Assembly: GCF_000745835.1 (NCBI RefSeq)
Contig: NZ_JQKB01000002.1
Span: 1 to 64,000, forward strand
Length of the DNA stretch: 64,000 bases
Reading direction: 5' to 3'
Source of the DNA: Belnapia moabensis DSM 16746
GTDB lineage: Bacteria > Pseudomonadota > Alphaproteobacteria > Acetobacterales > Acetobacteraceae
Part shown: piece by piece, positions 40,541 through 45,609 of the stretch
Position numbering within the stretch: the first letter of the stretch is position 1
Layout: every line of letters begins with the position of its first letter
Made by a program: the position numbers and the translations under genes
Notes under the pieces: model-generated
What the model saw: the letters and a program-made list of their open reading frames with translations, nothing else
Database searches by the model: none
What the model was told of the DNA's origin: nothing

Positions 40541-42184
40541 TCAAACCGCTCCGGCCAAGGCACGCATCCAGACCGCGACCGCCGCCGCCCCGGCATCCGG
40601 CACGCCGACCGCCCGCGCGCCGAGATAGCTCGCTCGGCCGAGCCGCGGGGTCATCGCCGCGGTCGCCGCCGCCCCTTGCTCCGCCGCCTCGGCCGCCGCG
40701 GCGAGGCCGCCCTGCTCCAGCGCCTCCGCCGCTGGGGCCAGCGCGTCCAGCATGGTCCTGTCGCCCGGCTTTGCGCCGCCCAGCTCGGCGATGGCCACGA
40801 TCCCGGCGCGGAAGGCAGCCGGCCAGTCACCGCCCTGCTGCATCGCCCGCGCCGCCCGCAGCAGGCCCGTCGCGTAGAACGGCCCCGAACTGCCGCCGAG
40901 CGCCCGCCGCAGCGCCTCGCCAAGCGCGGCCAGCGCCGTCGGCGAATCGGCCCAGGCACCTTCCGGCAAGGCGCGGATCGCCGCCGCGCCGCGCACCATG
41001 CTGAGGCCGAGATCGCCATCGCCGGCCGCGGCGTCCAGCTCGGTCAGCCGGGCTTCCGCTGCTTCCAGCGCCGCCGCCACCGCCAGCCCTGCGGCCTGCA
41101 GCCGGGGCGCCAGCGGCCCCGGCGCGCCGAAGGTAAGCGGCGCGGCCGGCGGCGCCACCACGACGGCCCGCGCCGCGATCCGCCCAGGGCCTGGCCAAGC
41201 GGGCGCCTCGCCAGGCGCATCGAGCAGGGCGAGCCGTACATCGTCCAGCTTCAGCAGGGAGAGGGAGCAGCCCGGCATCTCCAGCGCGGTGAGGAAGTTG
41301 CCGGCCCAGGCCCGCTCCACCACCAGCCCCCGCTCGCGCAGCAGGCCGATGGCGCGGCGGGCGACGATCGACAGCTCCATCGGCGGCGTCCCGCCCAGCC
41401 CATTGACCAGCAGCGCCACCCGGTCGCCCGCGCCGAGCCCGCGATCGGCGAGGATCGCCCCAAGCATCCGCCCGACCAGCGCATCCGCCGGTGCCATGGC
41501 CGCGCGCTCGACGCCCTGCTCGCCATGGATGCCAAGGCCCAGCTCGATCTCGCCCTCGCCCAGGGCGAAGCCCGGCTTCCCCGCCGCCGGCACGGTGCAG
41601 GCGCCGAGCGCGACCCCCATGCTGCCCAGCTCCGTCGCCGCCGCGCGGGCGATGGCCGCGACCTCCGCCACCCCCTGCCCCGCCGCCGCGGCGGCGCCGG
41701 CCAGCTTGTGGACCAGCACCGTACCGGCGATGCCGCGGCGCCGCTCCGGCGGCACCGTTTCGCGCAGCGCCACGTCATCAGCGACGACGACCACCTCGCA
41801 GGGGATGCCCTCCGCCCGCGCCAGCTCGGCGGCGAGACCGAAATTCAGCCGGTCGCCGGTGTAGTTCTTGACGATCAGCACCGCCCCCGTCGACCCGGCC
41901 GCGGCGCGGATGCCGCTCAGCACCGCATCGACGCTCGGAGAGGTGAAGACATCGCCGGCGATGGCGCCCGCCAGCAGGCCGGGCCCGACATAGCCGGCAT
42001 GGGCCGGCTCATGCCCCGCCCCGCCGCCCGAGAGCACCGCAACCGGCCGCGCCGCGGGCACTGGCAGCCCGGCGCGGACAACCACCAGCTCGCCGTCCAG
42101 CAGGGCGAGGCCGGGATGCAGGTCGCACAGGCCTTCGAGCATCTCCCGCACCACATGGCGCGGGTCGTTGACCAGCTTCTTCAT
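40541..42184 (-). CDS. Dihydroxyacetone kinase, fused DhaK-DhaL form
   Basis: ATP-dependent phosphorylation of dihydroxyacetone or a similar triose. 547 residues, close to the single-chain enzymes of about 550. The K domain (1-330) has SGGGAGHEPAHAGYVG (52-67), KNYTGD (106-111) and the substrate-binding His H220 in LGIHGEQG. The L domain (about 356-547) has the Mg-ATP motif DAAAGDGDLG with D384, D389 and D391. It follows pyruvate kinase after 21 nt. Because no PTS phosphotransferase subunit is fused, it should use ATP directly. Sugar specificity could be another small ketose. Confidence 0.9.
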   Translation of the reverse strand: MKKLVNDPRHVVREMLEGLCDLHPGLALLDGELVVVRAGLPVPAARPVAVLSGGGAGHEPAHAGYVGPGLLAGAIAGDVFTSPSVDAVLSGIRAAAGSTGAVLIVKNYTGDRLNFGLAAELARAEGIPCEVVVVADDVALRETVPPERRRGIAGTVLVHKLAGAAAAAGQGVAEVAAIARAAATELGSMGVALGACTVPAAGKPGFALGEGEIELGLGIHGEQGVERAAMAPADALVGRMLGAILADRGLGAGDRVALLVNGLGGTPPMELSIVARRAIGLLRERGLVVERAWAGNFLTALEMPGCSLSLLKLDDVRLALLDAPGEAPAWPGPGRIAARAVVVAPPAAPLTFGAPGPLAPRLQAAGLAVAAALEAAEARLTELDAAAGDGDLGLSMVRGAAAIRALPEGAWADSPTALAALGEALRRALGGSSGPFYATGLLRAARAMQQGGDWPAAFRAGIVAIAELGGAKPGDRTMLDALAPAAEALEQGGLAAAAEAAEQGAAATAAMTPRLGRASYLGARAVGVPDAGAAAVAVWMRALAGAV

Positions 42185-42205: not shown

Positions 42206-43849
42206 CTACTTCACCGATGCCACCCGCAGCGCATTGGTGGTGCCAGGCGTGCCGAAGGGAACGCCCGCGGTCACCACCACTTCCTGCCCCGGCGCGGCGA
42301 AGCCCTCGGCCTGGGCCGAGCGCAGCGCCTTCGCCACCATATCCGACATCGAATGCGGCTCTTGCGAGACCAGCGGATGCACGCCCCAGACGACGGCGAG
42401 CCGCCGCGCGCTCTCGATGCTGGCGGTGAGGCCGAGGATCGGACAATCCGGCCGCTCGCGGGCGACACGCAGGGTCGTCGAGCCGGTCGAGGTGAAGGTC
42501 GCGATCACCTGGGCGCCGATGGTATGCGCCACCTGCCGCGCCGCGGCGGCGATGGCGCCGGCGCTGTTGGGCTCCGGTGCCGGCCGGGCATTGTCGGTGA
42601 GCGAGCGCCAGTCCGGGTCCTGCTCAACCCGTGCCACGATGCGGTCCATCATGTTGACAGCCTCGAAGGGGTACTGCCCCGCCGCCGTCTCGGCCGAGAG
42701 CATCACCGCATCCGCTCCATCGAACACAGCGGTGGCGACGTCCGATGCTTCCGCCCGCGTCGGCGCCGGCGCCGAGATCATGCTCTCCAGCATCTGCGTG
42801 GCGACGACCACCGGCCGGCCCAGGGCGCGTGCCGCACGCACGATGCGCTTTTGCACCAGTGGCACCTCCTCCGGCGGCAGCTCGACGCCGAGGTCGCCGC
42901 GCGCCACCATGACGCAATCGGCCAGCGCGATGATGGCGTCGAGATTCTCGACCGCCTGCGGCTTCTCCATCTTCACCATGACGAGGGCGCGGCCGGCGCA
43001 GATCGCCTTGGTCTCCGCCACGTCCTCCGGCCGCTGGACGAAGCTGAGGCCGATATACTCGACGCCCCGATCGAGGACGAAGGAGAGGTCCTCGCGGTCC
43101 TTCTCCGTCAGCGCCGGGATCGGCAGCGCCACATCGGGGACATTGACACCCTTGCGGTCGGAGAGCGGCCCGCCGACGACGATCTCCGTTTCCAGGTGGT
43201 CCTCGCGCACGCGCGTGACCCGGAGCCGCAGCTTGCCGTCGTCGAGCAGGAGCGAGGTGCCGATCTGCGCCGCCTTGATGATCTCCGGATGCGGCAGCTG
43301 CACCCGGCGCACATCGCCCGGATTGGGGCTGAGGTCGAGGCGGAAGGGCTGGCCGGTCTGCAGCTGCACCCGCCCGCCTTGGAAGCGCCCTACGCGGAGC
43401 TTCGGCCCCTGCACATCGGCGAGGATGCCGATGGGCCGCCCGACCTTCCGCTCCAGCGCGCGGATAATGGCGATGCGCTCGGCATGGTCGGCGTGGCTGC
43501 CGTGGGAGAAGTTCAGGCGGAAGACATCGGCCCCTGCCCGGTAGAGCCGCTCGATCACCTCGGGGCTGGAGCTGGCCGGGCCGAGGGTCGCCACGATCTT
43601 GGTGCGGCGGCGGCGGCGCAGCGGGATGCGTGTGGCCATGCGGGGCGTGTTCCCTTCGAGCGGGGTCTTGTGGAGGTCCGGCCGCAGCCGATGCGGCGGC
43701 AGGTCGAGCAGGCGGGACAGCTCGGCGACCCGGTCGGCGGGCACGCGCTGCCATTGCGAAACCGCGGCCGGGGAGATGCCGAGGGCGGTCGCGATGCGGG
43801 TGACGGTGCCGCGTCGGGCGAGAAGGTCATCCAGTTCTGGGTCGCGCAT
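42206..43849 (-). CDS. pyk: Pyruvate kinase with N-terminal YdaS/Cro-like HTH extension
   Basis: Transfers phosphate from phosphoenolpyruvate to ADP. Residues 71-547 are a full-length pyruvate kinase: RRTKIVATLGPASSSPEVIE, FRLNFSHGSH, ILADVQGPKLRVG, and the catalytic-lysine block LVMVKMEKPQAVENLD. Residues 1-70 form a separate module: TVTRIATALGISPAAVSQWQ, then VPADRVAELSRLLDLPPHRLRPDLH, which reads like YdaS/Cro-type helix-turn-helix proteins. The frame is unbroken between them. Either a true fusion is made from 43849, or translation begins at the internal ATG 43639 (residue 71), which has GAAGGG 12 nt upstream. Neighbouring kinase genes are co-directional. Confidence 0.88.
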   Translation of the reverse strand: MRDPELDDLLARRGTVTRIATALGISPAAVSQWQRVPADRVAELSRLLDLPPHRLRPDLHKTPLEGNTPRMATRIPLRRRRRTKIVATLGPASSSPEVIERLYRAGADVFRLNFSHGSHADHAERIAIIRALERKVGRPIGILADVQGPKLRVGRFQGGRVQLQTGQPFRLDLSPNPGDVRRVQLPHPEIIKAAQIGTSLLLDDGKLRLRVTRVREDHLETEIVVGGPLSDRKGVNVPDVALPIPALTEKDREDLSFVLDRGVEYIGLSFVQRPEDVAETKAICAGRALVMVKMEKPQAVENLDAIIALADCVMVARGDLGVELPPEEVPLVQKRIVRAARALGRPVVVATQMLESMISAPAPTRAEASDVATAVFDGADAVMLSAETAAGQYPFEAVNMMDRIVARVEQDPDWRSLTDNARPAPEPNSAGAIAAAARQVAHTIGAQVIATFTSTGSTTLRVARERPDCPILGLTASIESARRLAVVWGVHPLVSQEPHSMSDMVAKALRSAQAEGFAAPGQEVVVTAGVPFGTPGTTNALRVASVK

Positions 43850-43853
43850 GGGT

Positions 43854-43925
43854 GTAACTTACAAAGTTTAAGCCCATGCCGCCAGGACCGCTTTGGCTTA
43901 AATTTGGAAAGGCATGTTAAGTTAC
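43854..43925. promoter_or_regulatory. AT-rich spacer with two nested inverted repeats
   Basis: In the 67-nt gap before the HTH-pyruvate kinase start, GTAACTTA (43854-43861) is mirrored by TAAGTTAC (43918-43925), and TTTAAGCC (43867-43874) by GGCTTAAA (43895-43902). A small palindrome AACTT-ACA-AAGTT lies at 43856-43868. The stretch is far richer in A+T than its surroundings. It looks like operator/promoter DNA and could be bound by the adjacent HTH module (inference). Confidence 0.5.
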
Positions 43926-45227
43926 GATCACCGCCCGGACATCGTTCACATTGGTCAGCGTCGGCCCGGTGACGATGAGGTCCCCGAGCGCGGCGAAGAC
44001 CCCGTAGCTGTCATGGGCGGCGAGCATGGCCCTCGGGTCGAGCCCCGCCGCCCGGGCCCGCACCAGCGTATCCGGCGCCGCGATGGCGCCCGCGGCATCC
44101 GACTTGCCGTCGATCCCATCGGTATCCGCCATCAGCGCCCAGATGCCGGGGTGCCCTTCCAGCGCCAGCGCCAGGCCGAGCAGCCCCTCCATGCTGCGCC
44201 CGCCCCGGCCGCCGGCGCCGGGCGGCAAGGTCACCGTTGTCTCCCCACCAGAGAGGATCAGCGCCGGCCGTCCGACCGGCAGCCCATGCGCCGCGCTGCT
44301 CCGGGCGATGCCGGCCAAGACCTTTCCAAGCACCGAGGCCTCGCCTTCCAACGCATCGCCGAGGATGAGCGGGGCGAGGCCGATCGCCTCCGCCTCCCGC
44401 GCCATGGCCCGGAGCGCCATCAAGGGCGTGGCGATCATCCTGAGTTCCGCGCCCGTGAGGCGCGGGTCACCCGGCTTCGGGCTTTCCTCCCGCGCCTCCT
44501 CCAGATGCCGCATGACGGCGGGCGGCAGGCGCATCCCGTAATGCGCGGCCAGCGCCCGCGCCTCGGCGAAGCTGGTGGGGTCGGGCACCGTCGGGCCGGA
44601 GGCGATCACTGCCGGGTCGTCCCCCGGCACGTCGGAGATGGCCAGCGTCACCACCCTCGCCGGATGCGCCGCCGCTGCCACCCGCCCGCCGGAGAAGGTC
44701 GAGAGATGCTTGCGGATGCAATTCATCTCCTGGATCGGCGCGCCGGAACGCAGCAGCTCCCGGTTCACCGCCATCAGATCGTCGAGGGAGAGGCCCGCCG
44801 CCGGCAGGGTCGAAAGCGAGGAGCCACCGCCCGAGACGAGGAACAGCACAAGGTCCTCAGCCGAGAGCCCTCGCAGCAGCCCGAGCATTTCGGCCGCCGC
44901 TGCCGCTCCGGCCGCATCGGGCACCGGGTGGCTGCCGAACCGCACCGCGATCCGCCGCCCCGGCGGCGGGTCCGGCACGTCGGCGCCATGGGTGGTGATG
45001 ACGAGGCCGGATAGCGGCCGTCCGGCCCAGGCCCGTTCCACCGCGAGCGCCATCTTCGCCGCCGCCTTGCCGACGCCGATGACGATGCAGCGGCCCCGTG
45101 GCGCCTCCGGCAGATGCGCCGGCAGCGCGGTCAGCGGGTCCGCCGCCGCCAGTGCCGCCTGGAACACCCGGTGCAGCGCCGCCCGCGCCCGCGCATCGTC
45201 CCAGGCATCGTTCCGGTCTGCGGCCAT
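43917..45227 (-). CDS. Glycerate 2-kinase, MOFRL type (TtuD/hydroxypyruvate-reductase-annotated family)
   Basis: Phosphorylates D-glycerate to 2-phosphoglycerate, feeding lower glycolysis next to pyruvate kinase. 436 residues: CIVIGVGKAAAKMALAVERAW, FLVSGGGSSLSTLPAAGLSLDDL, NCIRKHLSTFSGGRVAAAAHPA, SDVPGDDPAVIASGPTVPDPT, and the C-terminal MOFRL part with LILSGGETTVTL and WALMADTDGIDGKSDAAGA. Members are often annotated as hydroxypyruvate reductase; the kinase role is the better-established one. ATG 45227 chosen. In tartrate operons a ttuD-type gene precedes a pyruvate kinase, as here. Confidence 0.9.
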   Translation of the reverse strand: MAADRNDAWDDARARAALHRVFQAALAAADPLTALPAHLPEAPRGRCIVIGVGKAAAKMALAVERAWAGRPLSGLVITTHGADVPDPPPGRRIAVRFGSHPVPDAAGAAAAAEMLGLLRGLSAEDLVLFLVSGGGSSLSTLPAAGLSLDDLMAVNRELLRSGAPIQEMNCIRKHLSTFSGGRVAAAAHPARVVTLAISDVPGDDPAVIASGPTVPDPTSFAEARALAAHYGMRLPPAVMRHLEEAREESPKPGDPRLTGAELRMIATPLMALRAMAREAEAIGLAPLILGDALEGEASVLGKVLAGIARSSAAHGLPVGRPALILSGGETTVTLPPGAGGRGGRSMEGLLGLALALEGHPGIWALMADTDGIDGKSDAAGAIAAPDTLVRARAAGLDPRAMLAAHDSYGVFAALGDLIVTGPTLTNVNDVRAVIVT

Positions 45228-45300
45228 GCTCTGCTCCCCCTCCCCTTTGCCTCGGCGCCAGTATGGACCATCTAGGGCCCTGACCGAGAGGGAGAGACCC

Positions 45301-45609
45301 ATGCCCGATATCGACCCCGCCACCCGCACCGAGCTTGAGGCCGCCGCCTTCCGCCGCCTGGTGGAGCACCTGCGCGAGCGGACCGACGTGCAGAACATCG
45401 ACCTGATGAACCTCGCCGGCTTCTGCCGGAACTGCCTCAGCAAGTGGTACCGCGCCGCCGCCGAGGAAAAGGGTATCCCGCTCGCCGACCCCGAGGCGCG
45501 GGAGATCATCTACGGCATGCCCTACAAGGAGTGGCAGGCGAAGCACCAGGTCGAGGCGACCGCGGCACAGAAGGCGCAGTTCGCCGCCTCCAACCCCGGC
45601 CACGGCTGA
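45301..45609 (+). CDS. DUF1244 family protein
   Basis: A 102-residue small protein conserved in alphaproteobacteria. The body LRERTDVQNIDLMNLAGFCRNCLSKWYRAAAEEKGIPL with its CRNC pair, followed by AREIIYGMPYKEWQAKHQ, is the family hallmark. The two close cysteines may bind metal or form a disulfide; function is unknown. It is divergent from the glycerate kinase across a 73-nt gap. A GAGAGGGAGAG purine run just upstream is the ribosome binding site of ATG 45301. Confidence 0.9.
   Translation: MPDIDPATRTELEAAAFRRLVEHLRERTDVQNIDLMNLAGFCRNCLSKWYRAAAEEKGIPLADPEAREIIYGMPYKEWQAKHQVEATAAQKAQFAASNPGHG

Follow-up and report, generated by a model that had tools for sequence, protein, structure and literature searches.

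Introduction

It has been previously reported that some enzymes also act as repressors of transcription. These are the so-called trigger enzymes, of which PutA and BirA are described examples, and the accessible part of the review on them contains no occurrence of the term "pyruvate kinase" (PMC6978683). In BzdR, an HTH-XRE domain is joined to a shikimate-kinase-like domain, and the protein became a dedicated repressor, as the available sections of the report describe (PMC3602430). In phages, Cro and YdaS repress their own promoters, and the accessible part of the same source also refers to paaR2 and cI genes that are leaderless (PMC8630535). Judged by titles and abstracts, we recognised no report in the open-licence PMC literature of a pyruvate kinase with a helix-turn-helix (HTH) domain of the Cro/YdaS type. 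Here, we describe such a protein (HTH-PK), encoded by the pyk gene of Belnapia moabensis DSM 16746: a real, conserved, in-frame fusion of an HTH domain to a complete pyruvate kinase (PK).

Results

The pyruvate kinase of Belnapia moabensis carries an N-terminal HTH domain

Coordinates refer to the window, that is, the whole stretch of 64,000 nucleotides of contig NZ_JQKB01000002.1 that was analysed. The gene, its parts and its neighbours are:

42206..43849, minus strand: HTH-pyruvate kinase fusion gene, 547 aa (open frame and Pfam)
43670..43849, minus strand: Cro/YdaS-type HTH domain, residues 1-60 (Pfam, structure model, fold search, conservation)
43625..43669, minus strand: variable linker, residues 61-75
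43637..43639, minus strand: ATG of Met71 inside the frame, probably where pyk started before it was fused
42209..43609, minus strand: pyruvate kinase barrel and C-terminal domains, residues 81-547 (Pfam, fold search)
43917..45509, minus strand: upstream neighbour, DUF4147 + MOFRL protein, with its stop 67 nt before the fusion
40541..42184, minus strand: downstream neighbour, Dak1 + Dak2 protein

A first-pass annotation, made from the sequence alone, had proposed an unbroken frame joining an HTH to pyruvate kinase, and this was borne out: the minus strand from 42206 to 43849 is a single open frame of 547 codons plus a stop, with the Pfam domains of both parts in frame. The PK barrel (residues 81-398, 368.4 bits) and PK_C (residues 432-543, 120.4 bits) both score above the curated Pfam cut-offs. 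For the HTH, the annotation had suggested a profile search of residues 1-70. P22_Cro (PF14549) reached 32.6 bits at residues 11-46, against a cut-off of 30.2, which by score places the domain in the P22 Cro family; YdaS (PF15943, cut-off 30) stayed below its cut-off in the full protein (25.4 bits) and came to 30.2 bits when residues 1-70 were searched alone. On the enzyme side, R111, N113, S115, D145, R152, K293, E295, G318, D319 and T351, whose catalytic roles we assume from other pyruvate kinases, are all present in the fusion protein and invariant among 38 aligned fusions. The only PK match in the B. moabensis genome (G000, 6.73 Mb, 98.95% complete) is the fusion protein. A second, distant PK-like protein with 34-37% identity to P0001 is found in some relatives (G009, G010, G011, G022, G023, G027 and G028) and was not found in the B. 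moabensis genome. A sequencing or assembly artefact was ruled out because the frame is kept in 65 records.

In a structure model, residues 1-75 form five helices with a mean pLDDT of 76, and the helices forming the turn are predicted at residues 15-23 and 27-31. The annotation had quoted two stretches as the HTH: the HTH is indeed there, and the second stretch, RLLDLPPHRLRPDLH, spans later helices and an LRPDL tail. Foldseek comparison of the HTH model with the PDB ranked Xfaso 1 Cro, the YdaS N-domain and XPH1 at the top and P22 Cro eighth, all as weak matches (E 0.03-0.3, none below 0.001). By sequence, the best matches were XPH1, Xfaso 1 Cro and P22 Cro, and in the alignment P22 Cro also has the segment AAVSQW. 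For the full protein, modelled as a monomer, the closest folds were the pyruvate kinases 7oo1 and 7ueh.

The fusion is conserved and its HTH domain is constrained

We examined whether relatives keep the fusion, a check that the annotation had also proposed. The scan of named genomes returned 80 loci, of which one (L037) was dropped by a motif filter; the remaining 79 and the window make 80 records, and 65 of these are fused and 15 unfused (64 of 79 usable loci fused when the window is left out), in a scan that favours fused loci because MRDPELDD was among its patterns. Within the family, at least 44 of 299 genomes, our own included, align from residue 1. When the same fusion was sought across the class (385 genomes), no genome except that of B. 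moabensis reached E<=1e-28 among the matches listed, which included four other genomes of its family. The fusion is spread over Roseomonadaceae-type Acetobacteraceae, and by record titles the fused genera are Belnapia, Paeniroseomonas, Siccirubricoccus, Dankookia, Paracraurococcus, Roseicella, Falsiroseomonas, Neoroseomonas, Plastoroseomonas, Roseococcus, Rubritepida, Humitalea and Pararoseomonas. Frameshifts or a loss of protein conservation in the 70 upstream codons, which the annotation had named as evidence against its proposal, were sought and not seen in the 65 fused records. In the 15 unfused records, the HTH module is wholly absent.

All 64 aligned fusions have an identical recognition segment, AAVSQW, and R2, D3, L6, R13, G14, I19, A20, L23, I25, A28-W33, P37 and R40 are invariant in the 64 complete ones. 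Pooled over 1896 pairs of these complete fusions, dN/dS was 0.35 for the HTH, 0.69 for the linker (residues 58-75), 0.29 for PK_C and 0.185 for the barrel, so that the HTH value is about twice that of the barrel. By this measure the HTH is under purifying selection and, given the invariant residues as well, it is kept as a protein domain. The linker, with pLDDT below 50 at residues 61-73 in the protein model, looks like a tether.

Five changes of the fused label suffice in a quick tree, compared to 23.6 with shuffled labels, and at least three of the five are forced by well-supported branches. This pattern is compatible with, though no proof of, one gain and about four losses of the fusion.

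A conserved palindrome precedes fused pyk genes

The annotation had overlooked a palindrome, CTTA-N7-TAAG, in the spacer 5' of the fused genes. The predicted elements in the window are:

43858..43872, no strand assigned: predicted proximal operator, CTTAAACTTTGTAAG
43897..43911, no strand assigned: predicted distal operator, CTTTCCAAATTTAAG, with a single mismatch, at a distance of 39 bp from the first
43856..43861, minus strand: predicted -10 element TAAGTT, which lies partly inside the proximal operator
43879..43884, minus strand: predicted weak -35-like element TGGCGG, with a 17-nt spacer

With up to one mismatch, the last 90 nt of 65 spacers contain 112 sites with a gap of 7, against 1.45 expected from a mononucleotide shuffle; among gap lengths 0-15, the runner-up was gap 12 with 46 sites (same mismatch limit, 65 loci). 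At the same limit, 59 of 65 fused genes have a proximal copy that begins at -22 to -25, some 23 nt ahead of the start codon, and six lack it; the distal copy lies at -58 to -68 in 47 and is missing in 18. A perfect proximal site at exactly -23 is seen in 39 of the 65, and the commonest spacing between the two copies is 41 bp. In unselected alignment columns, information content was 0.92-1.65 bits within the proximal half-sites (-23..-20 and -12..-9) and did not exceed 0.11 bits in the 7 bp between them. Furthermore, in the 1710 spacer pairs with less than 40% identity outside the half-sites (mean 0.28), identity within the proximal half-sites was 0.72. The spacer around the palindrome is nearly random in sequence.

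The palindrome might have belonged to the neighbouring DUF4147 + MOFRL gene, which we take to be a ttuD-type glycerate kinase. This was ruled out because loci without a neighbouring ttuD retain the proximal site as well (24 of 28, compared to 35 of 37 with ttuD adjacent).

In genes of the Roseicella/Dankookia/Paracraurococcus type, the proximal site is imperfect or missing in five of six. The HTHs with a GTGAKIA segment include those of L040, L044, L046, L047 and L094 (Paracraurococcus, Roseicella), where the proximal operator is imperfect or not found at up to one mismatch, and that of L039 (Dankookia), where it is perfect. Judging by sequence, co-change of protein and site is possible in the GTGAKIA-type genes.

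The palindrome accompanies the HTH domain

We found no site within 350 nt in any of the 15 unfused named loci. The outgroup set comprised 14 loci (L018-L031), three of which were not located by motif; among the 11 examined, ten lacked a site and one had a one-mismatch site at -210. Counted genome-wide as perfect sites only, eight fused genomes contain 1-5 each, compared to 9-32 for a reversed control pattern. Each of the eight has one perfect site before pyk, which is the sole perfect site in two of them; the B. moabensis genome has four further ones. Seven genomes taken as unfused controls hold 0-3 perfect sites each, five of them aligning from residue 31 or later and two (G086, G101) classed by weaker scores only. 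Three of ten fused genomes contain the exact double site, each in a single copy that lies before pyk; the number is this small because second sites have mismatches or other spacing. A search for other relatives of this HTH at E<=0.001 found none in nine of ten fused genomes and one weak additional relative in the tenth (G035).

Free-standing relatives of the HTH in phages share the palindrome in most lineages

A scan of viral contigs (IMG/VR) yielded 22 loci with free-standing relatives of the HTH; grouping by eye gave 13 lineages. At 59% identity, L153-L155 are the closest, with the N-terminus MRDPALEELLSRRGAVKRIAEACDISTAAVSQWKRVP. The palindrome is found within 110 nt upstream in ten of the 13 lineages, compared to a mean of 0.44 and a maximum of 3 in 1000 shuffles, and to 81 of 3436 random windows. 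In five lineages it stands at -23 or -24, matching its place before pyk. Two viral loci were examined for neighbours (L154 and L158), and each has a divergent XRE-type repressor gene, that is, a neighbour of the cI type. No divergent cI-type repressor gene adjoins the fusion, whose neighbours are the DUF4147/MOFRL and Dak genes. The palindrome is absent upstream in the other three viral lineages; one of these, L174, has AAVSQW unchanged, and helix and site therefore do not co-vary cleanly. The simplest account of these sequence data would be that a phage cro gene was captured together with its promoter and operators.

The best named phage match, Komagataeibacter phage phiKM1, has no CTTA-N7-TAAG, and its segment differs (PGAVCQW). 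The gene in question is an unannotated Cro-like gene (L181 1501-1677; LC644974.1 7111-7287), 52.5% identical to the L154 Cro, which adjoins an XRE gene and is preceded by a dyad, ACTAAAC-ATG-GTTTAGT, recognised by eye. The cro region of Rhizobium phage RHph_I1_23 was read by eye only.

Six more distant YdaS-type relatives in genomes (L147-L152) have no site in the 120 nt before the match, and three of them are fusions of YdaS to other proteins. In L148 (G051:C86), a YdaS-type HTH (YdaS 74.7 bits) is in frame with an NAD(P)H-hydrate epimerase/dehydratase (YjeF_N + Carb_kinase), and TAAGCATAACTT occurs twice upstream as a possible operator. In L149, L150 and L175-L180, from several alphaproteobacterial genomes, the HTH is fused to nitrate-reductase-delta-type proteins, presumably TorD-like; all 8 that were scanned score above the cut-off for both domains. 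Capture of YdaS by other proteins may be a wider pattern.

The predicted proximal operator overlaps a presumed promoter fixed to codon 1

In fused genes, the right half of the proximal operator runs on as TAAGnT at -12..-7, positions -35..-33 are enriched for T, G/T and G at a spacer of 17 nt, and position -1 is C in 92%. A scan with the strict sigma-70 consensus found no promoter. The spacing of the -10 and -35 elements, together with the C at -1, points to a transcription start on the A of codon 1; the pyk mRNA is probably leaderless, which would argue for translation from residue 1.

We consider it highly likely that pyk acquired the Cro lytic repressor of a phage, along with the promoter and operators of that repressor, and that the two were fused in frame, giving a bifunctional, self-repressing enzyme. 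The capture would have taken place in an ancestor of the Roseomonadaceae group, with the Cro coding region placed in front of pyk. Pyruvate kinases are usually tetramers, and the oligomer and allostery assumed here are those of other pyruvate kinases. The PK part would form an oligomer and so bring HTH domains together, pairs of which would bind CTTA-N7-TAAG. Since the proximal site overlaps the -10 element, binding there would cover that element and block RNA polymerase at the enzyme's own promoter, and with the second site about 41 bp (four turns) upstream, one tetramer could hold both. The idea of an enzyme that also binds DNA, put forward in the annotation, draws strong support from comparison, namely from the conserved in-frame HTH, the conserved operator just upstream of it, the lack of the operator where there is no HTH, and the same operator before phage cro genes. 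HTH-PK very probably binds and represses its own promoter. We infer DNA binding, a leaderless start and bridging of two sites by a tetramer, as well as repression rather than activation, the latter from the position of the site and from the behaviour of Cro and YdaS. That the enzyme also reads its own metabolite state, as the annotation had suggested, is conceivable.

Although HTH-PK might bind the operators and activate pyk, or chiefly control other genes, we regard this as unlikely. The distal site does lie on the far side of the presumed -35 element, where an activator would be expected to bind, and there are four other perfect sites in the own genome; however, the presumed -10 element falls partly within the proximal site, self-repression is what Cro and YdaS show in the part of the literature available (PMC8630535), and the pyk site is the sole perfect one in two of eight fused genomes.

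We see only a slim chance that the palindromes are sites of another regulator or parts of the promoter, with the HTH of the enzyme a relic or serving another purpose such as oligomerisation. The overlap of the right half of the proximal site with the presumed -10 and the lack of good sites before some fused genes would be expected on that account. On the other hand, AAVSQW is invariant in an HTH under purifying selection, the site is in 0 of 15 unfused loci and precedes the free-standing phage relatives of the HTH, nine of ten fused genomes lack a second relative of this HTH at E<=0.001, and neither the left half nor the distal site is a promoter hexamer.

It is very improbable that the gene makes two products, as in the annotation's alternative of an overprinted regulator with the enzyme restarting at ATG 43639: this ATG is present as named, Met71 is kept in 65% of 64 fusions, and 60 of 65 linkers have some start codon, 43 of them behind a four-base SD-like word (raw counts), but 35% of the fusions lack Met71, the conserved promoter and operator directly precede codon 1, where -1 is C, and in none of the 65 fused records is the HTH closed by a stop codon, so that a separate regulator could not form. 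Restart at residue 71 was rejected as the main account, given the incomplete conservation of Met71 and the promoter fixed to codon 1; a minor internal start in the linker is conceivable.

Discussion

Self-repression by a captured Cro, the reading preferred here, would make this locus a traceable case in which bacteria turned a phage switch, both protein and DNA sites, into a control that is part of a central enzyme of metabolism. Living genera include some that keep it, some with an imperfect form and some without it, and the phage form can still be found, which makes testable how enzymes become transcription regulators. If metabolites alter binding, one protein would form a circuit from glycolytic flux to transcription. 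More tentatively, and with the odds against it, the PK tetramer could be a flux sensor in which ligands or the assembly state rearrange four phage-derived HTHs on a pair of operators with a spacing of about 39-41 bp; the glycolytic state would then directly set pyk transcription, and capture of Cro/YdaS by metabolic genes could be a recurrent route to self-regulating proteins.

The closest described systems on the DNA-binding side are P22 Cro and YdaS, lytic regulators of lambdoid phages (PF14549, PF15943; 3bd1 for Xfaso 1 Cro, 8co2 for the YdaS N-domain, 1rzs for P22 Cro), with which HTH-PK shares HTH sequence and perhaps the fold. It has the recognition segment AAVSQW in common with P22 Cro and, as in these regulators, operators would lie over the promoter of its own gene. 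Unlike these regulators, HTH-PK is fused to pyruvate kinase, stands in a bacterial operon and has no cI partner adjoining; its operator also differs from the GTTTAGTAA repeats reported for CP-933P in the accessible part of PMC8630535. The cro-like genes from IMG/VR (L153-L174) are 37-59% identical to the HTH and share CTTA-N7-TAAG in the ten lineages noted above, but they encode separate small proteins of 65-78 aa, with a divergent XRE-type repressor in the two examined.

On the enzyme side, the pyruvate kinases of Pseudomonas aeruginosa (7oo1) and Zymomonas mobilis (7ueh) share the catalytic and C-terminal domains at 52-56% identity in the fold search, and the match starts only at residue 79-81 of HTH-PK. 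BzdR resembles HTH-PK in having an N-terminal HTH on a kinase-type domain; unlike BzdR, HTH-PK is the only PK found in its genome and keeps the catalytic residues. As in the trigger enzymes, an enzyme and a DNA-binding domain are combined in one conserved protein, which probably represses transcription as they do. Unlike PutA and BirA, however, HTH-PK is a glycolytic enzyme, and its DNA-binding domain and operators appear to be of traceable phage origin.
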